From the NCBI GenBank assembly GCA_023382265.1, contig JAMCPX010000028.1:1-58301 (forward strand): 58,301 nucleotides of DNA, written 5' to 3'. This DNA comes from Deltaproteobacteria bacterium (GTDB lineage: Bacteria; JAMCPX01). Of the stretch, positions 21,651-36,211 are shown in pieces (the stretch's first letter is position 1; every line of letters starts with the position of its first letter). The position numbers were made by a program, and so were the translations under genes. Under the pieces are notes generated by a model. The model was not told where the DNA came from. It saw only the letters and a program-made list of their open reading frames with translations, and did not search any database.

Positions 21651-24011
21651 TTAAACTCTGATAATGAGTTTCTTGATAATCACATACGCGAGAGGGATAA
21701 GAATAATCAGGAATAGTAGATCGTACACGGATACCCTGCCCGTTGTATTGCAACTACAACCGGCAGATGATGGACATGTTTCAGGTCCATCAGGCAGGTA
21801 CGGTGGATAGAAGTTCTGAGGGTTATACCTTGCCATTAAAGTAAGATAAGACAGAGTTGCCTCCCATACATGAGGTATTGCAACTCTATCGTTATAATAT
21901 TCTTTGCCTGTGGTAGTATTTGTCATTACTACGGCAACCTCTCCCATATGCCCGGTATCCTGTGTTGGTACGTTATAAAGTAGATCGTATATCAATGGAT
22001 CTAAATGATTAATTCCGGATGCGTTATTCTGGAACATGGCTGCAAGTGCAACTGTTGCCTTACCAATATATGAAATAACAGGTACCTGATACGTAAGTGC
22101 AGGCGTGATCTGCCCCAGAAGATAATTAGACTGATCCTGCATTATTGTAGATGTGTACGGCAAAAACTCTGCAGGCCAGATTGCCCATGACGCTGCACCA
22201 ATATTATTAGTATATTGAGTTGATGATACATAAAAATTGGTGATTATTGCCTGTTTTAATTGATCAGCCCTGACCTGCCACTGTGCCGCATCATTTGTAT
22301 CATTCATGTATTTTGCAGCCTGGATGCCCGACTCTATGCCAAGCCATGCTGCAATAGCACCCTGTAATGTTTGTGTTTGTACAGGGTTATCATCTTCGTT
22401 TGCATAACATTGCAGATTATTTGATGTATCTTTACAATTGACCAGTGCTTGTGTGCCGAGTTTTATGGAAGACCAAACCCGATTCATGTAATTTACTCTT
22501 TCGCATGCTGCTGGCAGAAAACCCGTATGTATCCACATTGTCCAGACGGCAAGTCCTGTTTCATCGATCTCAAAAGGTATTGGTCCGCCGGGCATGCCGT
22601 CGGCATAAAAATTCATATCAAAGCTGCCGGCAGGGCCGTTATTGGTGGCAGTTTTTCTTTGAACCTTTGCATAAAATAAGTTATGCTTTGTGACCATATC
22701 ATGATAACCCGCTATATCAAGCGCATAATTAATAAAAGAACCGTCTCTGGGCCAGTCTTCTGCATAAGGAGGCTGTGTTGATATTGAAGCAACAATAGAG
22801 CCTGTTATATTGTCTGTTGCTAATCTGATGGTGATTAATGTTCTTTTTGAAAAATTCAGGATCGTCTTATCCTGCGTGGAAGGCAGTTGCGCCGTGGAGA
22901 GCCAATTATGCCACCACGTATTCGTGTTATCAAGTATAGCCTGCCAGCCAAGATTTTTAGCATAATCAATGTCAGATTGCGCATCGGTATAATCTTTTGC
23001 AAATGAGAAATAAACCGTAAAGCTCATCTTGCCTTGTGCATCAAGGGAGAATTGCTTTATTACAGCTCCGTCCGCTTCGCATTCTGCTGCAAGACTATCT
23101 TGTAAATCGCCATTGTAAGCCGCATAATAGGCATCCTGCGGAGTATAGGGATTTATTACATTTCTGCCTGGGGAGCACAATGTTACAGAATCATTGCCTA
23201 CCTGAAAGCTGTCGGGCGTAAAGTCAAAACCTATAACTCCATAAACACCGTTTGGCAGGTTATTGATGTTTGATAAGAAAGACTGCACCGATGATTGATC
23301 AGGTATGCCTGAGAATAAGGTCGCTACATGAGAAAAATTTTGATCCCCCGGCATAAAATGTACAAGCTCATTATCTGAGGTATCATAAAGGCATGCATAA
23401 TCATTCTGTGTTTCATCAACCCAATCATCCATTGGCAAATATTCTGTTTTGTTGAGGCAAGGACCGAGATTTTCAAAGTACACGAATTTCAGGTTATTTA
23501 TTGAATTGATGGTAAGATTGTCTATAACATAATGTCTGACGAGTACGTCTTTATCGGGCATAACAAGATCATACTGTGTAACCATTATACCATTTGCGAT
23601 CGATGTGTACTGCGTAACAAGCACGTCAGAATCGGCTGATAGATAGTATTGTTGTGTTGTAAATGTTGGATCCCTTAACCATACCATACCCGAGATAGGC
23701 ATACCTGCTGTAAAATATAGGCCCGCAAAACTACCCATATTATCTGCGGCACCAAAATGCGGTAGAGTTCTTGCTGATTCTGTTGGTAAGACACCGGATG
23801 ATGCAGTTTTGTAAGTAAGTTGATTATAATAACTCGGATTTGGCCATCTGAGAACCGTTATTGTTCCATGCTGTGATATCCCAACACTTAAACCTCCATT
23901 TCCCACCTCTCCATTAATATTAGTAGCACCAAATGGTTCTATCGAATCAGCATATAGATTTGTACTAAAATTTATTATAAGCAGAGCCAGACATACTTTT
24001 AATAACTTCAT
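21651..24011 (-). CDS. Secreted GH15-like glucoamylase-type glycoside hydrolase
   Basis: The 786-residue exported protein has a signal peptide (1-21, cut after NLYA), a beta-rich N-terminal region, and an (alpha/alpha)6-barrel pattern. GH15-like landmarks are AEDWPRDGSFINYALDIAGY (substrate pocket), FEIDETGLAVW (probable acid catalyst Glu) and PHVWEATLSYLTLM near 725 (probable base Glu). These enzymes release glucose from the ends of alpha-glucans or related sugars. The end is odd: a short Cys cluster (CPSSAGCSC), a hydrophobic segment of about 18 residues, and a basic tail (KKLIIRV), which would hold the enzyme in a membrane or act as a sorting signal. It stands alone in its own transcription unit. 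Family is likely; substrate unknown. Confidence 0.75.
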   Translation of the reverse strand: MKLLKVCLALLIINFSTNLYADSIEPFGATNINGEVGNGGLSVGISQHGTITVLRWPNPSYYNQLTYKTASSGVLPTESARTLPHFGAADNMGSFAGLYFTAGMPISGMVWLRDPTFTTQQYYLSADSDVLVTQYTSIANGIMVTQYDLVMPDKDVLVRHYVIDNLTINSINNLKFVYFENLGPCLNKTEYLPMDDWVDETQNDYACLYDTSDNELVHFMPGDQNFSHVATLFSGIPDQSSVQSFLSNINNLPNGVYGVIGFDFTPDSFQVGNDSVTLCSPGRNVINPYTPQDAYYAAYNGDLQDSLAAECEADGAVIKQFSLDAQGKMSFTVYFSFAKDYTDAQSDIDYAKNLGWQAILDNTNTWWHNWLSTAQLPSTQDKTILNFSKRTLITIRLATDNITGSIVASISTQPPYAEDWPRDGSFINYALDIAGYHDMVTKHNLFYAKVQRKTATNNGPAGSFDMNFYADGMPGGPIPFEIDETGLAVWTMWIHTGFLPAACERVNYMNRVWSSIKLGTQALVNCKDTSNNLQCYANEDDNPVQTQTLQGAIAAWLGIESGIQAAKYMNDTNDAAQWQVRADQLKQAIITNFYVSSTQYTNNIGAASWAIWPAEFLPYTSTIMQDQSNYLLGQITPALTYQVPVISYIGKATVALAAMFQNNASGINHLDPLIYDLLYNVPTQDTGHMGEVAVVMTNTTTGKEYYNDRVAIPHVWEATLSYLTLMARYNPQNFYPPYLPDGPETCPSSAGCSCNTTGRVSVYDLLFLIILIPLAYVIIKKLIIRV

Positions 24012-24102: not shown

Positions 24103-24756
24103 TTATACAGTGGATTTTTTGAGCTTTTCCCAATCTTTATTAAATATATCAATACCTTTATCCGTTAATGGATGCTTAATAAGCTTTTCAAGCACATTGA
24201 ATGGGACTGTAGCTATATGCGTGCCTATGAGTGCTGCCTGAACAAAATGAAGCGGGTGCCTTATACTTGCCGCAATGATCTCTGTTTCAAATAAATAATT
24301 ATCAAATATGGTAACGAGCTGTTCCAAGAGATCCATGCCGTTGCCCGATATATCATCTATTCTGCCTATGAATGGACTTACGTATCTTGCACCTGCTTTT
24401 GCAGCAAGTAATGCCTGTGAAGCTGAAAAGATCAATGTAATATTTGTTTTAATGCCTTTTCCCTTAAGTCTTTTTACGGCTATTAATCCCTGTTCACACA
24501 TAGGCACTTTTATTACTATCTTTTCACTCAACTTTGAGAGTGCTTCTGCTTCTTTAATCATTCCGTCTGCATCCGGCGAAACCACCTCCGCATTTATGGG
24601 ACCATCTACCAATCTTATTATCTGCTTAAGCTGTTCTATCGGCTCCTTACCTTCTTTTGCTAAAAGGCTTGGATTTGTTGTTATTCCGTCAACAACGCCG
24701 ATTGCTATGCCATTTTTTATATCTTCAATATTTGCGGTATCAAGAAAGATTTTCAT
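24103..24756 (-). CDS. tal: Transaldolase / fructose-6-phosphate aldolase family
   Basis: The 217-residue short-form transaldolase has [27 protein letters not shown], and the Schiff-base Lys83 in [10 protein letters not shown], followed by [23 protein letters not shown] and PFIGRIDD. It is the small subfamily (TalC/MipB type, about 215 residues) that moves a three-carbon unit between sugar phosphates in the non-oxidative pentose phosphate pathway; some members act as fructose-6-phosphate aldolases. The gene ends 92 bases before the GH15-like gene and has its own upstream region with a hairpin at 24873-24892. Confidence 0.93.
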
Positions 24757-24935: not shown

Positions 24936-25610
24936 TTAAAAGAACGTATATCCAATACTTCCTTCTATAGATTGCCTATCAAACATATGCGCCTCAAAAT
25001 TGAAAAACAGATATGGGTTAATAAACTGATCCATACCGAACACAGCACCTACATTATACGTTGAATTGTAAGTTATGCCTGGAAATGAAAGATTAACATT
25101 AGAACCATTCAATCCGCAATAGAGGATTGTATTCGCATTTTTTACGGCCCCCAGAATAGCCCCTTCATACTCAAAGTATTGTGCCGTTTGGTTGCTATTA
25201 CCGCTCTGGATATTGTAAACATCGGCAGATATGTTTACCGTGAACCTGCTCCTGTGCGGATCCGGCAAAGAAAGTCTTACCCCGCCGCCAAAAGCACCGC
25301 CCATATAACCTTTAAAAGACGGGTTTGACAACCATAGATCGGAGAACCCTCCATCAGCAAATATACTCAATTCGCTTACAGGGTCATATCTTAATAAAGC
25401 TGTAAATCCTTTTGACGTTATATTCGTATCCGGCAACCTTTGTTTATTTGGAGATACGTTGATCATCTCAAAATTGATACCGAAATCCAATGATAGATCC
25501 CCCGACTTCTGTCCTACGGCTAAAGAGCCTATTGGAACTGCTATCGCTTTACCTGCAAATAATAGCACGATCACACAAGCAAATAAAACTTTTGCATGGT
25601 ATAACTTCAT
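24936..25610 (-). CDS. Outer membrane beta-barrel protein, unknown family
   Basis: The 224-residue protein begins with a clear signal peptide (MKLYHAKVLFACVIVLLFAG, cut after KAIA). The mature part is made of alternating polar and hydrophobic stretches typical of amphipathic strands, such as SIFADGGFSDLWL and FTVNISADVYNI. It ends GSIGYTFF, with the terminal Phe that the Bam complex recognises. I count roughly eight to ten candidate strands, so a small barrel is likely. No substrate or enzymatic motif is visible. The gene stands alone between tal and the kelch relic. Confidence 0.75.
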   Translation of the reverse strand: MKLYHAKVLFACVIVLLFAGKAIAVPIGSLAVGQKSGDLSLDFGINFEMINVSPNKQRLPDTNITSKGFTALLRYDPVSELSIFADGGFSDLWLSNPSFKGYMGGAFGGGVRLSLPDPHRSRFTVNISADVYNIQSGNSNQTAQYFEYEGAILGAVKNANTILYCGLNGSNVNLSFPGITYNSTYNVGAVFGMDQFINPYLFFNFEAHMFDRQSIEGSIGYTFF

Positions 25611-25699
25611 ACTGACACAATATGTAACGAATAAAGCTATGAAGTGTCAAGAGATTGTAGGGGGACATGGTTAAATAAATTTCACAAGGCAGAGCAAAC

Positions 25700-25849
25700 T
25701 TAATACACCTTTGTTGCTTCTATGGTATCAAGCGGTGTGCCATTGGGTGTTGATATGCCACCAAGTGCATATACATATCCATTATAACTTACTGCTGAAA
25801 GCTTGTATCTGTGAAGATTCAATGGGGTAGCTGTCTGCCAGCTAACCAT
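25700..25849 (-). pseudogene. Relic of a kelch-repeat protein, C-terminal end
   Basis: On the minus strand a 49-codon frame ends in TAA (25700-25702) and reads as one kelch blade: NLHRYKLSAVSYNGYVYALGG, then a TPNGTPLDTIEATKVY end. The GG doublet after YVYAL and the hydrophobic strand before it fit the kelch pattern. An in-frame stop lies about 35 bases upstream of the ATG, and no further blades are visible in any frame before the lipoprotein gene at 25902. It is the tail of a former beta-propeller, not a working gene. Confidence 0.6.
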
Positions 25850-25901
25850 CCCCTGTTCATTTAAAATTAGAGCACAAAAGGTATATATTTTTTATTAAAT
25901 T

Positions 25902-26606
25902 TTACTGTATCTTTTTAAGTATCTGTGTAGCGGTGATCAGCCATCTGTTATTATCATTTACAAATGTCCACTGCACTTCTGTTAATTCTGTAATCGTCTC
26001 GGGTATAAGGCTTTTTGTTACTATTGATGTCTTTTGATTCATGATTGCTGTGGCCGTATTACCTGACACATTGATGGATATTTTTGAGAATGAAACATCT
26101 ATTTTCTGATAACGATTAAAGTAATTCTCAAGGGTACTCGCATTTTGAGCTCTATTTCCTGCGAGATCCTCAAGAGCTAAACCTACGTTCTTTTGCGCCA
26201 TTGCCTGTTTCTGTCTATTTATTATGGCTATGATCTCTTTTTTTGCTACATCCGCTGGAGACGGCTGAAGCTTTGAAGAAGGCACATTAACGGTTACTTC
26301 TTCGGGTTGTTTTTTTGCAGGAGTTGAAGATGTTGTTTTGACGTATATCTCTCTGTGTAAAGGTTTTACATGTTTCTTAGGATTTTCAGCTTTTGCTTTA
26401 TTCGTTGCCGGTTCTTTGTTTGATTCAATAGGTCTTGGTACAGGCTGGAGTTGAGACGGTATGGAAGTCTGCGATGGTGCAGTACCTTCCGTTTTTAGTG
26501 TGATGGTGATCTCTTCCTCTTTTTTCTTTTTTGAGCATGCCGTTATAATCAGACCAAAAACGGTAACCGTGGTAACGCTTATGTAGATGAGTTTTTTATA
26601 ATTCAT
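25902..26606 (-). CDS. Lipoprotein with a C-terminal NTF2-like domain
   Basis: From the ATG at 26606 the protein has 234 residues. The signal peptide MNYKKLIYISVTTVTVFG ends in a lipobox (IITAC), so it is lipid-anchored. Residues about 25-120 are low-complexity, rich in Lys, Pro, Ser and Thr. The C-terminal 110 residues, starting KKEIIAIINRQKQAMAQKN and ending TEVQWTFVNDNNRWLITA, look like a small NTF2/DUF4440-type domain by secondary-structure pattern; this is tentative. The start overlaps the end of the adenylate cyclase gene by 11 bases, so it is the last gene of the seven-gene operon. A sensing or scaffold role beside the cyclase is inference. Confidence 0.7.
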   Translation of the reverse strand: MNYKKLIYISVTTVTVFGLIITACSKKKKEEEITITLKTEGTAPSQTSIPSQLQPVPRPIESNKEPATNKAKAENPKKHVKPLHREIYVKTTSSTPAKKQPEEVTVNVPSSKLQPSPADVAKKEIIAIINRQKQAMAQKNVGLALEDLAGNRAQNASTLENYFNRYQKIDVSFSKISINVSGNTATAIMNQKTSIVTKSLIPETITELTEVQWTFVNDNNRWLITATQILKKIQ

Positions 26607-28014
26607 ATGCAATCTCATATATCTGCTGGGCATCTTTTTTACCTTTTACATATACCTTTTCAAGCGGGTTTGCATGCACGTTGTCCTTTATAGCCTGATA
26701 CGTTATTTCACTTACAAGGATCTGTCCACCTTTTGTAAGTCCCTCAATCCTTGAGGCGAGGTTAACAGTATCTCCTATTACAGTATATTCAAGTCTTCTT
26801 TCAGACCCAACGCTTCCTGCCACAACGGGTCCTGTCGCAATACCGCAGCCAACCTGAAGATGCCTTGTTTTGCCGTTTTTTTCCCATTCATCATTTAGCT
26901 TTTTCAAAGCCTTTTGCATGTCGATCGCAGTTTTCACAGCCCTTAACGGGTCATCTGTGTGTGCATAAGGAGTCCCAAAAACTGCCATTATCGCATCTCC
27001 GATATATTTATCCAGTGTACCTTCATATTGAAAAATTACGTCAACCATTGCCGTAAAATATTCTTTAAGTATGCTCACAACCTCTTCCGGTGAAAGTTGT
27101 TCCGACATGGATGTAAACCCTCTTATATCCTGAAATAGAACCGTTGTAATCCTCTTTTCCCCTGTTATGGCAACGCCTTTCTCCTTTATCAATGCCTCTG
27201 CAACGTGTTCCGATACGTATCGTTTAAAGGTTTGTTTTATGTGTTCTCGCTCCCTTAAACCTTCAATCATAAAATTAAAGCTTGATGCAAGCATCTGTAT
27301 CTCATCCCTTGTTTTTACATCTACATATTGATTAAGATCCCCATGCTCTACATTTTTCATGGCATCGACTATCTTATAAATGGGTTTTGTAATATTCAAG
27401 GATAATCCAAATGAAGCCATAATGCCAATAATAATAAATGCAAGTGTGAAAAATAGCGTAACAATTCTTGCACTACTTACAGATGCATCAAATCTATACA
27501 GAGAATATCCGATACTCATTGTTCCTATAAAGCGATTGGCGGGTTTTAATACTACATCTATTGGAAGTAAATGCCCGAGTTGATCAAGCACATTATCTGC
27601 AGAGGATTCGGGTGCCTTTGTTATCTTATCTTTTATTGCATCCTGGATCTCTCCGGCGAGTATATTACTTTGAGTTCCTGTTATTCTTGTGAGTAAAGGG
27701 AGATTGATCTCCGTATCAATTATATTACCTTTCTCATCAGCAATAACAACATAGAGTATGTTGTTATCAAGCTGCGGTGCGAATTTTAAAAACTGTTTCG
27801 CAAATGCCCATGGATCTGTACCATTCCCTCCAAGCAGTGCAAGGGCGCCCGTAATCTGAGCCATGCTTATAGCTTTTGACCTTATTTCGGTGCGCATGGT
27901 TGACTCCTGCCGTATTACGGATGTGTATGCAACTATGATCATGATGATCAAAATAAGCATTGCAACGAGCAACCCAAGTTTGAGTTTTAGACTGAAAAAA
28001 CCTGTACTACTCAT
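26596..28014 (-). CDS. Membrane adenylate cyclase (class III) with HAMP domain
   Basis: The 472-residue protein has TM1 (about 11-31), a periplasmic sensor region (about 32-182), TM2 (183-204), a HAMP linker (205-257) and a class III cyclase domain (about 285-460). Metal-binding Asp296 (FQDIRGFTS) and Asp340 (DKYIGDAIMAVFG) are present, as is YTVIGDTVNLASRIEG, the usual transition-state and base-selecting segment. Lys in LDKYIGD and the Asp of VIGD point to ATP as substrate, hence cAMP. The ATG overlaps the stop of the upstream beta-barrel gene (ATGA), so it belongs to the envelope operon. The periplasmic sensor fold is unrecognised. Confidence 0.9.
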   Translation of the reverse strand: MSSTGFFSLKLKLGLLVAMLILIIMIIVAYTSVIRQESTMRTEIRSKAISMAQITGALALLGGNGTDPWAFAKQFLKFAPQLDNNILYVVIADEKGNIIDTEINLPLLTRITGTQSNILAGEIQDAIKDKITKAPESSADNVLDQLGHLLPIDVVLKPANRFIGTMSIGYSLYRFDASVSSARIVTLFFTLAFIIIGIMASFGLSLNITKPIYKIVDAMKNVEHGDLNQYVDVKTRDEIQMLASSFNFMIEGLREREHIKQTFKRYVSEHVAEALIKEKGVAITGEKRITTVLFQDIRGFTSMSEQLSPEEVVSILKEYFTAMVDVIFQYEGTLDKYIGDAIMAVFGTPYAHTDDPLRAVKTAIDMQKALKKLNDEWEKNGKTRHLQVGCGIATGPVVAGSVGSERRLEYTVIGDTVNLASRIEGLTKGGQILVSEITYQAIKDNVHANPLEKVYVKGKKDAQQIYEIAYEL

Positions 28015-28901
28015 AACATAAGGTAGTCAAGACCCATTACATAGATATAATGATAGCCAAGAATAAATGAATCATAAGGAGCATATTTCATAGAAGCTGT
28101 AAAAAATAATTTTGGAGTTATGCTGACCCGTATGCCTGGGACAAGATCAAGTTTCCACTGCAGTATTGTTGTATTGTTTGCTAAATTTTCAACGTTGCCT
28201 CCATACATCCAGTTAAGTTCAAAAAATCCTGAAAAAGATAATCCAAGCGGTACGCTAAAAGCTGTGTTTGCAACGATTATATTGTTTTGCTTGGTATTTG
28301 TTGAAGGCTGCCTGCCGGTGTATCTATATCCGGCATTTGAATCCCACTGAACAATCCCAAGCTCTTTTGTGTATGCAAGATCAACCTCAAGATCGGTACC
28401 TTCGCTTCCCACCTGTTCAAACCCTGTTGGTAAATATACGGTACCGTATACCGCAAGCATTGGCGCTTTTAGAAATTGATACATAAGCCTTATAGCGGGA
28501 TTGCTTAAGCCGCCACCTGTGTTTGAAATATAGAATGCATTTGTAGTTAGATTCGTCTGTCCCCAGTCAAAAGACACATAAGGGATGCTCATAGAAAGAT
28601 TCATATCCGATGTGATATTATAACTTGCATTCAATATCTTATATATAAGCCTTTCTCTTGGATTTCCACTAAACTCATCCCATATATCTTTCCCGAGATA
28701 ACGATCGACCTGAACATAATACACATAAAACCCCGTATCCATCATCCCCCCCTGGCCGGTTTTTGCCGTTAATGTGAACAAGGGGAATGTTGTCTGACTT
28801 TTACCCTGTATTGATGCAATACCTCCTATTGCGCCAAGCTGGGCATAAGCATTGGTTTCGACAGCCATTAATAATATTATTAAGTATAGAAACCTTTTCA
28901 T
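28011..28901 (-). CDS. Outer membrane beta-barrel, MetA-like porin/transporter
   Basis: The 296-residue protein has a signal peptide (cut near NAYA, residue 20) and a mature part full of amphipathic strands: TGFYVYYVQVDRYL, LNASYNITSDMNLSMSIPYVSFDWG, LAVYGTVYLPTGFEQVG. The pattern of a folded strand pair with LPTG and a strand on PGIRVSITPKLFFTASMKYAPYD resembles the MetA-pathway type outer membrane proteins (PF13557-like), proposed to pass hydrophobic compounds. It ends GLDYLML, without a terminal aromatic. It is 12 bases after the hydrolase gene and overlaps the cyclase by 4 bases. Confidence 0.7.
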   Translation of the reverse strand: MKRFLYLIILLMAVETNAYAQLGAIGGIASIQGKSQTTFPLFTLTAKTGQGGMMDTGFYVYYVQVDRYLGKDIWDEFSGNPRERLIYKILNASYNITSDMNLSMSIPYVSFDWGQTNLTTNAFYISNTGGGLSNPAIRLMYQFLKAPMLAVYGTVYLPTGFEQVGSEGTDLEVDLAYTKELGIVQWDSNAGYRYTGRQPSTNTKQNNIIVANTAFSVPLGLSFSGFFELNWMYGGNVENLANNTTILQWKLDLVPGIRVSITPKLFFTASMKYAPYDSFILGYHYIYVMGLDYLML

Positions 28902-28913
28902 CCACTCACATTT

Positions 28914-30569
28914 TTATTTGAGGTTTGGTACCGGCATTGTTGTACTCACATGGGATTCAATCCAGTTATACATAATGGAATCAAGCTTTGAAACGTTCGG
29001 ATCTGATAAAAGCATATCAAGGTGCGTATGCATCGGCATGATATGTATGTCGAAACCGCATGAAGTTCTCAGTTGATTATTACAGTTCCTTGCCGATGGT
29101 AGCATATCCCTGTATTTATAAAAAACCGTCTCCGATTGCTCAAGACCGCTGCCTCCGCCAAGTGCAAGAACGGGTGCATCCATCTGCGGAGTATGGATTA
29201 CATACATACCCTGCTGCCACCTCCAATCCGACGTTCCTCTGACACCGTAATCATCGCCTATTGATAAAACATCAAGTGCTAGTCTCAACGGAAAATACCA
29301 CTCAAAAAAGCTTGTATAGGTATTTGAAAGTGCTGCTGCGAGGTCATTTATGTATGTTATGTGTCCTGCGCTGTTCCATGTATAAATCATTGTGCCTTGA
29401 TCCGTCGGCTGTGAAATGGTTACACCGGGAAACAATGTATTTGTCGCCGTTTTAAGCGGTCCATTCGCGCTACCCAATGTTCCGATAAGGATACTGATAG
29501 GGTTAAAGTGCCTGTCTATTGTAAACCCGAGCATTGCCTGATTTGTAGCTTTGAATTGGGTATTGCCGTATAACAATGCTGCAATAAGCGAGAAAACCGG
29601 GTCTTTGAGCAGGGTTGTCTGCACATCTGGTTCAAAGTAGTCATACAAGCCTTCTATCTCAAAAAATACCAGCAGTTTGTTTACCATACTGCCAAGGGAA
29701 GGACTGATGTAATTAAACAGGCTTGCAGCTAATACATTATCAGGGGTTGAGCGTATCTGATACAAACCGGGTATGGGAATTGTAAAACCTGAAAGCTCTA
29801 TCGAGTTGCCTGTTTGTGTGGATATGTAATCAGAAGACGTCATTGTTTGGAATAATCCGGAACCACCGCCGTCAATCAGTATAAGCCCTGCTATTTGATT
29901 GTAACCCGCATCGGATGTTGTGGAAGGGTTTCCATCAAAGTCATAAGCAGCATAATCCTCCGAGAGCCATGCACCGAGTGAATGCCCTCCAACGAATACA
30001 TTTGTTTTGCGGTACTGGGGCGGGATCAAAGATACAATGGTATTGAGATCCCTCAGGGTCATATCGAGTCCCCATTCAGACATGTATGTAATAGTTGATG
30101 GTGTAACAAAACCGGCAAAGGTCTTTCCATTAACAGATGCGTTATTGAAATAATAATTATAGGCAATAGCCGGATCGTGATTATTCCATGCCGATATTAA
30201 ACCTGTCCTATCATCAAGCAATACAGATCGCCTGTCAATTGTCCAGACTTCAATATTACCGTGGCTCATTGCTACGAGGGACTTTGCCATTTTATCAAAG
30301 CCGCCTGCTCCCATAAAGATCCCCGGCATTAGTATAAGCACTGCCTTGATATCTTTTGGTTCCTGACTGTAATAATATCTTGTAAACACTGAATAATTAT
30401 ATTCCAATGGTGTGGGTGCGTTTGTTATGGGATTGGGAGGTACTGTATAATTTGTGGGTATTGTATAGGCGGTCATTAGAACAGGTGACGTTGAGGAGCT
30501 ATTTGAATTTGAGCATGATATTATAAACAAACCCAGCAGTAGTGTTGAAATGAATATTTTTTTCAACAT
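28914..30569 (-). CDS. Lipoprotein alpha/beta hydrolase
   Basis: From the ATG at 30569 the protein has 551 residues, with a lipoprotein signal MLKKIFISTLLLGLFIISC (Cys19). The nucleophile elbow is GGHSLGAW (Ser197). An oxyanion-type segment ILMPGIFMGAGGFDKMA precedes it, and a C-terminal His in THLDMLL is the probable catalytic His. It should be an esterase or lipase-like enzyme in the periplasm or on the outer membrane. The insert between Ser and His (about 270 residues) is long. I preferred MLKK over two upstream starts because only it begins with a normal n-region; the ATG follows the GH1 stop by one base. Substrate unknown. Confidence 0.8.
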   Translation of the reverse strand: MLKKIFISTLLLGLFIISCSNSNSSSTSPVLMTAYTIPTNYTVPPNPITNAPTPLEYNYSVFTRYYYSQEPKDIKAVLILMPGIFMGAGGFDKMAKSLVAMSHGNIEVWTIDRRSVLLDDRTGLISAWNNHDPAIAYNYYFNNASVNGKTFAGFVTPSTITYMSEWGLDMTLRDLNTIVSLIPPQYRKTNVFVGGHSLGAWLSEDYAAYDFDGNPSTTSDAGYNQIAGLILIDGGGSGLFQTMTSSDYISTQTGNSIELSGFTIPIPGLYQIRSTPDNVLAASLFNYISPSLGSMVNKLLVFFEIEGLYDYFEPDVQTTLLKDPVFSLIAALLYGNTQFKATNQAMLGFTIDRHFNPISILIGTLGSANGPLKTATNTLFPGVTISQPTDQGTMIYTWNSAGHITYINDLAAALSNTYTSFFEWYFPLRLALDVLSIGDDYGVRGTSDWRWQQGMYVIHTPQMDAPVLALGGGSGLEQSETVFYKYRDMLPSARNCNNQLRTSCGFDIHIMPMHTHLDMLLSDPNVSKLDSIMYNWIESHVSTTMPVPNLK

Positions 30570-30570
30570 A

Positions 30571-32157
30571 TCAGTGTCCATATTGATCAATAATTGAAGG
30601 GCTTATACTGTTACCTGCGGCTATCGCAGAATAAACATCAACCGCGGGCTGGACAGCTGTTCTTGTAAAATCCGTCCCTGTAGTCGGGCTCCAACCACCG
30701 CACGCCGGTACAGTGCATCTTGTAAAATCATCAACAGTAAACAAACCAAAATTTTGGGCATAGCCGGATGTCCATTCATAATCATAGTCCATTGTCCAGT
30801 ACATATAACCAAGTATATCTGACCCATGGTTTATGGCGTTCTTCACAGCCATAATGTTCTGCACAATGTATGCTGTTTTTGCGATAGGATCTCCTGAACC
30901 CGAGCCGTTTTCTGTTATCAGCATGGGCAGGTGATAGAGGTTTGTATATTCTACAAGCATATTAGTAAACCCTTGTGTCTCGGATGGATTAAGGAGCACT
31001 CTTGTTCCGTTTGACTCGGTTGTATACGGGCAACCCATTGATGTGAGCACCCCGGGTAAATAAGCATTAAGTGTCTGATCGCAGGGGATAGCATTTATAG
31101 GCGCGAGTATGCCTGGGGCAGGTATTACATAATCATTTGCATAGTAATTTACACCGATAAAATCTATGGTATTCGCCCAGTCAGTATGCGTTTCTGTGAA
31201 TGTTGTGCCTGTTAAGCCTTTATCAAAAACACCTTTCGTAACGGCATTGAGATAGGTTAGATTATAAGCATGATCAAAGGCATTTGCAGCCTCAGTAGAA
31301 CCGGCCACGTTTGGTGCCGGTGTTGTAAAGATAGAATTCTTTGCAATACTTACCATTGCATTTGGTTCTGCTGCATGGATTGCCTTGTATGCGAGTACAT
31401 GCCCGAGAATCATGTTTCTTGCAACATCAACCGCACTTGTGGAAAATGGCATTGTTGTTGTAGTTAGATTTAAATTTATTGGAAATCCAGGAGGATATTC
31501 ATCAAGAACATAACCAACAAGCACATCAACCATAGGCTCATTCTCTGTAAGCAAGTATGTTACTGTTGTTGAAAACTGCTGTGCCATAAAGCCGGCATAG
31601 TTTTCAAATGCATAAGCAGTAAGTGTATTGGTCCAGCCTGCAAGGCTTGTTGTACTCCGGGTATAGTTGTTGGCCGCAAGGTCTTGCGGATCATCCACCC
31701 ATATTGGTAACGTATAATGTGTCAGTGTAACAACGGGTGTAAGCCCATGGGCCTCTAAAGAGTTTATTACCTCCTGATAGTGACGGACCTCTGCCATATC
31801 AACATCACCTTTATTTAAAGGCATTCCTATAACTGAAGGTGCATGTGGCTCAATCCTTGACCACTCGAAGGTAAGCCTGAATGCGTTCATGTGCATTGCC
31901 TGCGCATTGGTAAAATCCTGTGCGTAAAGGTTATAAAAATTATCAGCAAGCCCAACAGGCGGTGTTTTGCCCATCTGCTCCCATACATACCAGTCATTGT
32001 TTGTAATCCCGCCCTCGCTCTGCTCCGCCGCCGTTGACACGCCCCATAAAAATCCCTTTGGAAAAGTTTTCGTGTTGCTGCTGCTCGAGCAGGATATCAG
32101 GGAAATGCCAAAAATAGACAGGAGCAAAGCTGCAATAACAAATGAATACTTTTTCAT
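30571..32157 (-). CDS. Lipoprotein GH1-family beta-glycosidase
   Basis: The 528-residue protein has a lipoprotein signal (lipobox LISC, Cys23) and then a GH1 TIM barrel. The GH1 N-terminal signature FPKGFLWGVSTAAEQSEGG is at 32-50. The acid/base is Glu207 in TENEP and the nucleophile is Glu416 in LITENGSG; the C-terminal MYWTMDYDYEW is the usual +1/-1 subsite segment. GH1 enzymes cut beta-glucosides, galactosides or related sugars and are mostly cytosolic, so export as a lipoprotein is unusual. AAGGA lies 7 bases before the ATG. It follows the START-like gene by 9 bases and is followed immediately by the lipoprotein hydrolase. Confidence 0.88.
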   Translation of the reverse strand: MKKYSFVIAALLLSIFGISLISCSSSSNTKTFPKGFLWGVSTAAEQSEGGITNNDWYVWEQMGKTPPVGLADNFYNLYAQDFTNAQAMHMNAFRLTFEWSRIEPHAPSVIGMPLNKGDVDMAEVRHYQEVINSLEAHGLTPVVTLTHYTLPIWVDDPQDLAANNYTRSTTSLAGWTNTLTAYAFENYAGFMAQQFSTTVTYLLTENEPMVDVLVGYVLDEYPPGFPINLNLTTTTMPFSTSAVDVARNMILGHVLAYKAIHAAEPNAMVSIAKNSIFTTPAPNVAGSTEAANAFDHAYNLTYLNAVTKGVFDKGLTGTTFTETHTDWANTIDFIGVNYYANDYVIPAPGILAPINAIPCDQTLNAYLPGVLTSMGCPYTTESNGTRVLLNPSETQGFTNMLVEYTNLYHLPMLITENGSGSGDPIAKTAYIVQNIMAVKNAINHGSDILGYMYWTMDYDYEWTSGYAQNFGLFTVDDFTRCTVPACGGWSPTTGTDFTRTAVQPAVDVYSAIAAGNSISPSIIDQYGH

Positions 32158-32166
32158 ATAGTTTCC

Positions 32167-32871
32167 TTATTTTTTACTGAACTCTTCTTTTACTCTTTTT
32201 CTAACAGCTTCAATAACACCGGGCAATGTTACATTTGTGCCGAGGTTTATCAAAAAGTCCGGGACACTCCCTCCCGGATCTGTAAATAGTGTATATGTTA
32301 CAAGAGTTCTTCTTTTATCGAGAGGAACAAGTTCCCATGATCCGTTATTGGTTTTTACATTGCCCATGACCATTATCCAGTGCTGAAACCACCTGCTGCT
32401 GGTTACAAAATCTTCAAGTTTAATAATATACCATCTATTGACAAGCGGCCAGGGCATGTTTAATAAACTAAAAAAGTATCCTGTTGTACCGGTCATTTTT
32501 TCTGCACGGTGTTGTCTTAGATATTTTATAAGAGCCTTCGGATCCGGTGTATTGTGATCAAACTTTAAGGCTACTGCCCCTGGAATAGCAGAGGGATGTA
32601 CAAGTATGCTTTTTATGGTCCTCGGCATAAATGCTTTAAAATCATTGTTCTGGTGTAAAACAGCCCAGATATCTTCAGGTGAAGCATTAACAATACCGAT
32701 GGCTACGCCCTTCTTGACTTCTGTGCCTTTTACGGGTTCAAGCCATTTTACAACCTCTCCCTTCTTTAGCATTTTCCATTGGGCAGGACTTATATCAACG
32801 GCATAAGCATTGATCGTAAAAATAATTATTAAAAAAACAGAAAGGATTATCTTAAACATTCTAAAAAGCAT
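32167..32871 (-). CDS. Exported START/SRPBCC-like lipid-binding protein
   Basis: The 234-residue protein has a signal peptide (to about residue 24, AYA) and a mature SRPBCC-type domain. The pattern is typical: an early strand VKKGVAIGIVNASPEDIWAVLHQNNDFKAFMP, a basic middle region, a PWPLVNRWYIIKLEDF strand, then WELVPLDKRRTLVTYTLFTDPGG and a long C-terminal helix. SRPBCC folds bind hydrophobic ligands such as lipids or polyketides in a deep cavity. The ATG at 32871 has GGAGG six bases upstream and overlaps the upstream gene by 11 bases. It probably carries a hydrophobic molecule in the periplasm; the ligand is unknown. Confidence 0.75.
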   Translation of the reverse strand: MLFRMFKIILSVFLIIIFTINAYAVDISPAQWKMLKKGEVVKWLEPVKGTEVKKGVAIGIVNASPEDIWAVLHQNNDFKAFMPRTIKSILVHPSAIPGAVALKFDHNTPDPKALIKYLRQHRAEKMTGTTGYFFSLLNMPWPLVNRWYIIKLEDFVTSSRWFQHWIMVMGNVKTNNGSWELVPLDKRRTLVTYTLFTDPGGSVPDFLINLGTNVTLPGVIEAVRKRVKEEFSKK

Positions 32872-34210
32872 ATTTTTCCTCCATGTGTTTAGATTTTTTT
32901 AGTTCAACCTTTATAGGTTTTACTAATTTCCCCTGATAGTAGATCATAGTTATGATTGGATAGTCAATAATATTAAGCCATGCCCTTTCGTCGCCCGGTT
33001 TGTATCCAACAGGCACATAAATATAGGAAGTGAATGTATAAACCCCCTGATGTGCCTTTATGAGATTTCCAAAATTGTATCCTGTATCTGCTATCTCTCC
33101 TTTTCTTTCATCATCAACAAAGTACAGATCCTTTGTAAATGGAACATCTTTACCCAAAACTACACGGTTCATCCATGCACCCTGAGGGCCTGCTATCACG
33201 GCCCAGTCATACGGGCCCATGTTAAGGTGCTTCTGTGCATAGCTCATCTTTCCGGTTATCTTTAATCCCCGCGGATTGTTGGAGTTGTAGAAAATCATGC
33301 CAATTGCGTTTTTGTTGAAATTGGTCGTTGTGAGCAGTTTACCGTTGCTCAGGATACTTAGATTCATAGGTATGTTTACAATAGAAGGAAACTCAAAATA
33401 ATCCGGATAAAAGGAACTATCGGAAAGTATAGATGGAGATTGAATCCCAAGCATAACATTCATGGAATTTTTGACCCGCCTAATGACCATTATGGGACCG
33501 AGTATATAATCAACAAGCCGCGACTTAAAATCATGCTCATCACGGTGTATCTTCAGTTTGCCCCAGAATGCACTTATATCAATACTCATCCTGAAGCCTC
33601 TAAAAAGATTGATCCCTCCTCCGCCTGCCGATTTTGGGACTAAAAAATAGTTATACTCAAGCGGTTCTTTTTTTAAAAAACCGACGGTATACAGATCAGT
33701 GCTTACCCGATCCGGTCCGGACTCAAAATGGATATACTTTACCGGAGATAAAGGAGGGGCATTTCGCTGGAAAAATACAAGATATGCGTACGCGTGAGAT
33801 CGAGTTAAAGGATCGGTCAATATTATCTCAATGAATTTGTCCCCGCGTAAAAAAAGATTAGGTATGCCCATTTTGATTCCAGCATCCTTTGCCATAAAAA
33901 CAAGCTCATCTTGTTGCGCTAGTGTTGTTCTCTTCAATGGTAAGGGATGCCCCTCGCCATCAAAGTTAAAAATCCAGTCTCCATGCTTATTTCTTTCATT
34001 TATCTGGAAAGGTATGGGTTCCAAAACCTGTTTACCACTTTTATTTGAAACTTTATAAAGTCTTAGAGAGGATATATCCGTTCCTATAAATGGTGAGAGT
34101 TGAGTCCCATGTATAATTACGGGATCAACGTTTCTGTCAAAAGCAGGCCTGGCATAAACATTTGTAACCAATGATAAAGAAATTATCATCAACGGTATAA
34201 TTTTTTTCAT
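32861..34210 (-). CDS. Exported protein of unknown family
   Basis: The 449-residue protein has a signal peptide (MKKIIPLMIISLSLVTNVYA). I do not recognise a family. The mature part looks beta-rich throughout: LRLYKVSNKSGKQVLEPIPFQINE, DELVFMAKDAGIK, HAYAYLVFFQRN. The first 90 mature residues resemble a beta-sandwich domain seen in some exported proteins, with the segment EPIPFQINE, but this is only a loose impression. No catalytic motif or cysteine pattern stands out. It ends basic (KVELKKSKHMEEKYAF). It is first in the seven-gene operon and overlaps the START-like gene. The divergent region to its right holds the candidate promoter area. Confidence 0.65.
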   Translation of the reverse strand: MKKIIPLMIISLSLVTNVYARPAFDRNVDPVIIHGTQLSPFIGTDISSLRLYKVSNKSGKQVLEPIPFQINERNKHGDWIFNFDGEGHPLPLKRTTLAQQDELVFMAKDAGIKMGIPNLFLRGDKFIEIILTDPLTRSHAYAYLVFFQRNAPPLSPVKYIHFESGPDRVSTDLYTVGFLKKEPLEYNYFLVPKSAGGGGINLFRGFRMSIDISAFWGKLKIHRDEHDFKSRLVDYILGPIMVIRRVKNSMNVMLGIQSPSILSDSSFYPDYFEFPSIVNIPMNLSILSNGKLLTTTNFNKNAIGMIFYNSNNPRGLKITGKMSYAQKHLNMGPYDWAVIAGPQGAWMNRVVLGKDVPFTKDLYFVDDERKGEIADTGYNFGNLIKAHQGVYTFTSYIYVPVGYKPGDERAWLNIIDYPIITMIYYQGKLVKPIKVELKKSKHMEEKYAF

Positions 34211-34316
34211 CCGCCGCCAAGGACCTCCATACTATTTAGGATCTTTTAACATAGTTGCATTATCAATAGCAAGCCGCACGTTTGCAATTACAATGGAGCA
34301 TACTTTTACACTTAAA

Positions 34317-34335
34317 TTTTTAGTTAACCTAAAAA
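34317..34335. promoter_or_regulatory. 19-base palindrome, possible operator
   Basis: TTTTTAG (34317-34323), a 5-base spacer TTAAC, then CTAAAAA (34329-34335): a perfect inverted repeat. It lies in the divergent region between the envelope operon and the acyl-CoA synthetase, about 85 bases before the latter. The size and symmetry suit a dimeric repressor, or an AT-rich hairpin. No regulator is identified. Confidence 0.35.
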
Positions 34336-34420
34336 TAGACAAAATGGTTGTTTTTTATTTCAATAAAGATAAAGATGACATGTAGAAATGTTAAAATATT
34401 TTAATTAAAAAAGAGGTTAT

Positions 34421-36211
34421 ATGGATTACAGATCAATACCTGAAATGTATTATAAGCAAGCGGATAGAAACAAAGGCAGGGTTATTATAAAACATAAAAA
34501 GGACGGCAAATGGTTTGATATTACATGGGATCAAAATAGAGAACTTACTGAGGCACTTGCGTGTGGATTAATAAAACTCGGGATAAAACCTCAGGAAAAG
34601 GTATGCATCTTATCAGAGAATCGTAATGAGTGGTACGTTAGCGATATTGCCATACAGAGTGCTGGTGCTGTTACCGTACCTGTTTATGCCACCAATACCC
34701 CTGACCAGGTTGCTTATATTGTTAATGACTCAGATGCTGTTGCAATAATAATTTCTACTGCACAACAGTATAATAAGATAAAAACAAAAAGAAATGAAAT
34801 GCCCAATTTAAAGTATGTTATATCTATGGACAAGCTTAACAATGAAAACGGAATAATGTGGTTTTATGATGTCACAGCTTCAGGACGGTCAAACGAGTTA
34901 AAAGATGGATTAGATAAAATACTTAATGCCATAAATCCTCAAGATCTCGCAACCATCATTTATACATCAGGCACAACGGGTGATCCAAAGGGTGTTATGC
35001 TTACTCAGGGTAATCTTCTTTCAATTACGGATGCTTCTTATGATGCATTTAAAGATGAGCTTACGGATGAAGTGATGCTTTCATTCCTTCCTCTAAGCCA
35101 CGGCTATGCAAGGATAGCTGATTTTTATGTACCGCTCTACCATGCCAAAGGTATCCAGGCTATAGCAGAAAGCATAGATAAGATAGCCGATAATTTGAAG
35201 GAAATACATCCAACAATGTTTGTATCCGTACCGCGGGTATATGAGAAGGTTTATGGAAGAATCATATCACAGGTTGAGGCAGACAAACCTATAAAAAAGA
35301 AGATATTTTATTGGGCAATATCGGTAGGCAGGAAGGCTGCTCCATATCTTATGGAAAGCAAGTCATTACCTCTGTCGTTAGCTTTCCAGTATCAGTTTGC
35401 GAATATCCTTGTATTTAAAAAAATTAAACAGGCCGTCGGCGGCAGACTTAAGTTCGCGATAGCAGGCGGTGCACCTCTTTCAAAAGAGCTTGGTGAATTT
35501 TTCTTTGCACTTGGCATAAAGATCATAGAAGGATATGGACTTACAGAAACAAGCGCTATTTTTATGGCAAATCCGCCAAAAAAAATAAAGTTTGGAACCG
35601 TAGGAAAGCCATTCAAAGGATATGAACTGAGAATAGCCTCTGACGGAGAAATCCTGTTAAAAGGATCAAACGTAATGAAAGGCTATTATAAGAAACCGGA
35701 AGCTACAAAAGAGATTCTTGATAAAGATGGATGGCTATATTCCGGGGATATCGGTTTTGTTGATAGTGAGGGATATTTACATATTACAGACAGAAAGAAG
35801 GATCTTATTGTTACAGCAGGCGGTAAAAATATTGCACCTCAACCGATTGAGAATAAACTAAAAATGAATAAGTACATAGATGAAGCGGTTATGATAGGTG
35901 ATAAAAGGCCATACTGTGTAGCACTAATAGTCCCGTCATTTGAAATGCTTGAAGATGCGGCAAAAAAAGAAGGCATCGCTTACAACGACAAAGAAGATTT
36001 GATCGGTAAACCACGCATAAACGAACTCATTTCTGCTGCAATCGAAGATGTAAATAAGGGACTCGCCAGATTCGAAACAATAAAGAAATTTATTTTGATT
36101 CCGCAGTTATTTTCACAGGAATCGGGGGAACTAACGCCAACCATTAAGGTCAAAAGAAGCGCTGTTGAGAAGAAATATAAGGACGTGATAGAAGAACTCT
36201 ACAGAGCGTAA
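34421..36211 (+). CDS. Long-chain acyl-CoA synthetase (AMP-binding)
   Basis: A 596-residue ANL-superfamily ligase that activates a fatty acid with ATP and joins it to CoA. The P-loop-like motif is YTSGTTGDPKGVM (181-193), and the adenylate motifs GYGLTETSA and YSGDIGFVD with TDRKKDLIVTAGGKNI follow. Length and the bipartite form match the FadD15-like long-chain group. An AGAGG site precedes the ATG. It is divergent from the envelope operon and followed by the ABC exporter genes; no beta-oxidation gene is adjacent. Chain length is inferred from family resemblance only. Confidence 0.9.
   Translation: MDYRSIPEMYYKQADRNKGRVIIKHKKDGKWFDITWDQNRELTEALACGLIKLGIKPQEKVCILSENRNEWYVSDIAIQSAGAVTVPVYATNTPDQVAYIVNDSDAVAIIISTAQQYNKIKTKRNEMPNLKYVISMDKLNNENGIMWFYDVTASGRSNELKDGLDKILNAINPQDLATIIYTSGTTGDPKGVMLTQGNLLSITDASYDAFKDELTDEVMLSFLPLSHGYARIADFYVPLYHAKGIQAIAESIDKIADNLKEIHPTMFVSVPRVYEKVYGRIISQVEADKPIKKKIFYWAISVGRKAAPYLMESKSLPLSLAFQYQFANILVFKKIKQAVGGRLKFAIAGGAPLSKELGEFFFALGIKIIEGYGLTETSAIFMANPPKKIKFGTVGKPFKGYELRIASDGEILLKGSNVMKGYYKKPEATKEILDKDGWLYSGDIGFVDSEGYLHITDRKKDLIVTAGGKNIAPQPIENKLKMNKYIDEAVMIGDKRPYCVALIVPSFEMLEDAAKKEGIAYNDKEDLIGKPRINELISAAIEDVNKGLARFETIKKFILIPQLFSQESGELTPTIKVKRSAVEKKYKDVIEELYRA

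Follow-up and report, generated by a model that had tools for sequence, protein, structure and literature searches.

The window, that is, the whole stretch of DNA analysed in our study, was 58,301 nucleotides long and corresponded to contig C28 of the source genome (G000), a draft of 2.63 Mb in 73 contigs. The list of open reading frames of the window contained all seven genes of a minus-strand run from 34210 to 25902, here called A to G, and the order of genes in the window was A-B-C-[D-E-F-G]-OMP-TAL. The features of the locus were as follows.

32861..34210, minus strand: A, exported protein of 449 aa, Pfam orphan, predicted galactose-mutarotase-like beta-supersandwich (open reading frame, model and fold matches).
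32167..32871, minus strand: B, exported START/SRPBCC-type protein of 234 aa (PF03364).
30571..32157, minus strand: C, GH1 beta-glycosidase lipoprotein of 528 aa (PF00232, lipobox, catalytic motifs).
28914..30569, minus strand: D, putative alpha/beta-hydrolase lipoprotein, 551 aa from ATG 30569 (GHSLG elbow).
28011..28901, minus strand: E, MetA-pathway-like outer-membrane barrel of 296 aa (PF13557).
26596..28014, minus strand: F, class III adenylate cyclase (HAMP and Guanylate_cyc, catalytic motifs).
25902..26606, minus strand: G, lipoprotein of 234 aa with a low-complexity linker and a conserved C-terminal domain (lipobox, alignment).
25611..25901, minus strand: spacer of 291 bases with a short Kelch-like open fragment, whose frame 1 reading ends SYNGYVYALGGISTPNGTPLDTIEATKVY and a stop.
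24936..25610, minus strand: OMP, exported, probable outer-membrane protein of 224 aa, found directly after C in sister genomes.
24103..24756, minus strand: TAL, transaldolase, found after OMP in sister genomes (74-75% identity).
21651-24011, minus strand (the same strand): GH15-like exported protein (glucoamylase type) of 786 aa, downstream of TAL.

The junctions within the run were re-measured as -11 (A/B), +9 (B/C), +1 (C/D), +12 (D/E), -4 (E/F) and -11 bases (F/G), in agreement with an earlier note on this DNA that had described every junction as an overlap or a gap of 12 bases or less; G was separated from the next gene by 291 bases. These figures take ATG 30569 as the start of D and ATG 26606 as the start of G. 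The starts given earlier, TTG 30590 for D and ATG 26633 for G, were those of the longest open reading frames, and the shorter ones were preferred because of their better signal-peptide fit, with the lipobox cysteine at residue 19 in D and residue 24 in G. For D, TTG 30590 and ATG 30581 are possible as alternative starts. Judged by the lengths of the junctions alone, the seven genes probably form one transcript in the source genome. No convincing terminator was found inside the run, and the scanned region contained six terminator-like matches against a chance expectation of 8.9. The promoter scan, which returned 49 matches against 33 expected, was unusable as evidence, and the Rfam search found two tRNAs only.

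The neighbourhoods of these genes were compared in the nine genomes that represented this small phylum, which belong to one family and four genera and comprise eight sisters besides the source genome. The seven genes were not found contiguous in any of the eight sister genomes. Instead, two units were found. The first contained A-B-C followed by OMP and TAL; A-B-C was directly followed by OMP and TAL in G001 and G003, and in G004, G005 and G006 the same order was seen in the parts covered by short contigs, with no B seen between A and C in G004. In genus g4, A stood alone beside a sugar-epimerase-like gene and B-C were still adjacent (G007:C2 and G008:C84). B-C were linked in all four genera and A-B in three. 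The second unit contained E-F-G, sometimes preceded by D, and E-F-G was contiguous in six sisters (G001, G002, G003, G006, G007 and G008), near dnaB, a ubiX-like flavoprotein gene, an adenosine-specific kinase gene and ribD. Homologues of D occurred in five sister genomes, directly upstream of E only in G007 and G008 of genus g4, by itself at another site in G003 and G006, and broken across the ends of two contigs in G004. The two units were on different contigs or in different places in every sister where they were visible, and only in the source genome, among the nine of the phylum, did D-E-F-G stand between C and OMP.

The run therefore very probably consists of two functional modules joined in the source genome, A-B-C and D-E-F-G, and what looks like one seven-gene system is probably two clusters that were joined locally. 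The earlier note had read the run as one seven-gene system, and the comparison of neighbourhoods, which it had itself named as able to refute that idea, shows two separate units in the sisters. Its further proposal, that the genes act on one substrate and report its status through cAMP, is not borne out by conservation, since D-E-F-G lies beside C only in the source genome and the cAMP is not tied in this way to a GH1/START substrate. The idea of a lipid- or sugar-linked substrate found support for A-B-C (B-C in four genera, A-B in three, A with a START gene in three distant lineages) and lost it for the run as a whole. Genes that are tightly packed in a single genome need not form one system, and the comparison corrects a likely over-reading. 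A single transcript could let the source organism co-regulate both modules. The Kelch-like frame SYNGYVYALGGISTPNGTPLDTIEATKVY at 25611-25901 was without a surrounding gene and is a possible remnant ending the D-E-F-G block. Lying between G and OMP, it would fit a possible rearrangement scar; by itself it proves nothing.

The types of protein named in the earlier note were essentially right, with the caveats that D was recognised by below-threshold matches and a GHSLG elbow and that A had no family. In the first module, C matched GH1 (PF00232) at 7e-53 with 180 bits against a cut-off of 22.6, contained both catalytic glutamates, E207 (TENEP at 204) and E416 (ITENG at 414), and was a lipoprotein with an N-terminal lipobox. 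B carried a signal peptide and matched Polyketide_cyc (PF03364) at 9.2e-06 with 26.4 bits against a cut-off of 23.4, which places it in the START/SRPBCC type with putative lipid binding. A START paralogue resembling B, apparently without a signal peptide, was present in genus g3 (L200:3894-6781 and L201:4184-5836), where it adjoined a biotin-carrier-like gene and a probable methylmalonyl-CoA mutase gene, both named by eye. In genus g4, a second GH1 lipoprotein gene was found among exported GH5-type and GH42-like genes (L203:4815-10286), which shows that exported glycosidases recur in the lineage.

No Pfam family was found for A, and six of its distant relatives were likewise without a meaningful match over the shared region. 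The contig scan with A alone as the query gave no match; an alignment-based scan succeeded. A profile built from seven A proteins matched 114 coding stretches, of which 80 were retained, in Delta- and Gammaproteobacteria, Oligoflexales, Chitinispirillales, KSB1, Calditrichota, Planctomycetota and others; tblastn of A against plasmids gave no match. In an alignment of 44 sequences, P67, Q69, E72, D109, G111, Y143 and G238 were invariant, and the AlphaFold2 model made from this alignment had a mean pLDDT of 91.7 and a pTM of 0.89. The Foldseek search of this model against the PDB found 34 chains at E <=0.001, nearly all of them carbohydrate-active enzymes, and the matched fold was the galactose-mutarotase-like beta-supersandwich of GH38, LacZ, PL26 and the putative mutarotase 3mwx. 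The matches to the GH38, 3mwx and PL26 chains had E-values of 1.6e-06 to 1e-4 with TM-scores of about 0.5 at best, modest values at which the predicted supersandwich names a fold class and not an activity or a function. A second, gapped copy of A, together with a 313-aa beta-propeller-like gene and a 223-aa gene, was present on another contig of the source genome (G000:C18, about 32100-35700; L021:7104-10703). This stretch was visibly far closer to G003:C69 (L013:16252-19894) than the identity of about 60% among the other A copies, and may have passed recently from one genus to another, or else be a contaminant or a misjoin.

Among the distant A loci, START-type genes related to B occurred only close to A, in loci that had been cut around A and thus favour nearby matches. 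A START gene was immediately upstream of A in L111 (12 bases), L142 and L150 (103 bases each) and L145 (81 bases), and one MMPL/RND gene away from A in L109. With L142, L145 and L150 being close relatives, the A-START arrangement occurred in three lineages of the 74 distant A loci, a recurrence that suggests a linkage without proving it statistically. Some of the distant A genes adjoined AMP-binding and acyl-CoA dehydrogenase-like genes. The locus L109:9995-15888, from a Deltaproteobacteria metagenome-assembled genome, contained the A relative, an MMPL/RND gene with a sterol-sensing-like match and a two-domain START protein, and looks like a lipid-transport locus. No description of the A and START arrangement was found in the literature searched. 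Tentatively, A and an exported START protein may work as a periplasmic pair, widespread across several phyla and so far undescribed, whose substrate would be a glycosylated or otherwise polar lipid; in some cases an MMPL/RND exporter (L109) or, in this phylum, a GH1 enzyme would join them.

In the second module, D matched alpha/beta hydrolases below the cut-off only (Abhydrolase_6, 19.7 bits against 26.3) and contained a GHSLG elbow at 195, of the GxSxG nucleophile-elbow form; its class as an alpha/beta hydrolase is thus putative and weak. E matched Phenol_MetA_deg (PF13557) at 1.1e-06 with 29.3 bits against a cut-off of 22, and its identity across the sisters was 62-67%. F contained a transmembrane segment at about 11-30, a periplasmic domain of about 150 aa, a second transmembrane segment at about 182-205, a HAMP domain at 204-255 and the cyclase domain, which matched Guanylate_cyc at 1.9e-33. 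The catalytic residues D296, D340, K336, D415, N418 and R422 were present, which supply the two metal Asp, the Lys/Asp pair for adenine binding, and the Asn and Arg of the transition state; the motifs FQDIRGFT (294), KYIGDA (336) and GDTVNLASR (414) were invariant in seven genomes, and the identity of F across the four genera was 72-76%. G had a faint SnoaL-like match, and its single-sequence fold (pLDDT 48) contained low-confidence helices followed by four strands. The source genome contained six cNMP_binding matches over the cut-off and other cyclase-domain matches (on C30 and C35), so F is not the sole possible source of cAMP. Outside the phylum, a search of 386 broader relatives with profiles of E and G did not recover the E-F-G trio: the E profile gave one weak, unconvincing match in G126, beside clpS/clpA and not a cyclase, and the G profile a marginal match in G351. 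E-F-G is best read as a separate, lineage-specific module that would sense the envelope and signal through cAMP.

From what is known of the protein families, it is possible, although it would not be our firm expectation, that module 1 handles a glycosylated lipid or a similar glycoside in the periplasm. The GH1 lipoprotein C would cut the sugar, A would hold or present the glycan part, and the exported START protein B would bind and shuttle the hydrophobic part. On the same kind of grounds, we would only hesitantly suggest that module 2 senses the state of the envelope with cAMP as its output. The barrel E would let a molecule in or anchor the lipoprotein G, the periplasmic domain of F would read a signal from the side of E and G, and its cytoplasmic cyclase domain would make cAMP for the cNMP-binding proteins encoded by the genome. 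The data themselves show the anatomy of the run, its domains and catalytic residues, the conserved and separate state of the two modules, the linkage of A with START and the existence of cNMP-binding proteins, whereas we infer the substrates, the order of action, the co-transcription and any contact between the modules. Taken whole, two joined modules together with these functions, the explanation stands about evenly between being right and being wrong.

Against the two-module reading, the run could be a single seven-gene system in which the envelope enzymes share a lipid- or sugar-linked substrate and F reports it as cAMP, the order being ancestral and split in the sisters. The junctions of -11 to +12 bases, C/D included, would agree with this, as would the retention of D-E-F-G in genus g4 too and a tree of F that does not place the window genus g1 inside the sisters. 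Yet no sister has both halves together, the halves stand in two different, internally conserved neighbourhoods, and in g2 and g3 OMP lies directly after C with no trace of D-G between them; we therefore consider one system very unlikely. We make no claim about the direction of the event, since g1 falls at an open fork in the tree of F and the ancestral order could be the seven-gene one, with the split coming afterwards. A mis-assembly of two unrelated pieces might be suspected in a draft of 73 contigs, with the stretch on C18 looking foreign or misjoined. However, a single base separates the two intact reading frames at the C/D joint, and the other side, where G is followed by OMP and TAL, also agrees with a genuine insertion between C and OMP. 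Misjoining by chance at both ends would seldom give such a pattern, which makes an artefact scarcely credible.

The two-module reading leaves the role of module 1 to be weighed, and a purely saccharolytic one is rather improbable in our estimation: C and the GH15-like protein would digest external glucosides, TAL would pass the sugar on to the pentose phosphate pathway, and neither A nor B would have to do with lipids. It draws on the intact catalytic residues of C, whose closest solved relatives are GH1 enzymes, on the TAL gene conserved downstream, on the exported GH15-like protein at 21651-24011, on further exported glycoside hydrolases encoded next to paralogues of A or C in G007 and G008, and on the sugar-type fold of A. 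It is hard to see, however, what part an exported START protein would play in digesting sugars, and yet the best-conserved pair is B-C; in addition, START, MMPL/RND, AMP-binding and acyl-CoA dehydrogenase-like genes are neighbours of distant A genes.

All of the enzymes come from known families, the run is real and was probably put together locally, and A with its START partner is the part most worth following. A represents an unnamed exported family whose members are spread over many phyla, whose fold is predicted with confidence and which repeatedly has a START partner; the pair offers a testable lead on how such bacteria might move or trim the polar lipids of their envelope. Retained in four genera, the compact E-F-G trio is a candidate periplasm-to-cAMP sensor.

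In comparison with the GH1 beta-glycosidases (CAZy GH1; archaeal BgaS/beta-glucosidase type), C likewise has a full GH1 domain with both catalytic glutamates, and its closest solved relatives are beta-glucosidases and beta-galactosidases; it differs in being a lipoprotein with an N-terminal lipobox and in scoring far below the NCBIfam equivalog cut-offs. B shares with the exported START/SRPBCC lipid-binding proteins (PF03364) the Polyketide_cyc match above the cut-off and the signal peptide, but it is a small single domain without a known ligand, encoded with A and a GH1 enzyme. In the literature searched, neither a system of START, GH1 and steryl glucoside nor a trio of barrel, cyclase and lipoprotein was found. 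The BstABC sterol transport of Methylococcus (PMC10942540) shares the idea of envelope proteins passing on a hydrophobic molecule, and the L109 locus, with A, MMPL/RND with its sterol-sensing-like match, and START, is a further likeness; neither BstB nor BstC, however, is a START or beta-supersandwich protein. An assignment of the window run to Bst-type sterol transport was rejected, the run containing no RND gene and no BstB- or BstC-like Pfam matches, and the likeness is one of analogy only. F shares the order of transmembrane segment, periplasmic domain, transmembrane segment, HAMP and cyclase, together with the catalytic residues, with the HAMP-linked class III cyclases that carry an extracytoplasmic sensor (solved domains, e.g., CyaB of Pseudomonas, 3r5g), and differs from them in its fixed neighbours, a MetA-like barrel and a lipoprotein.
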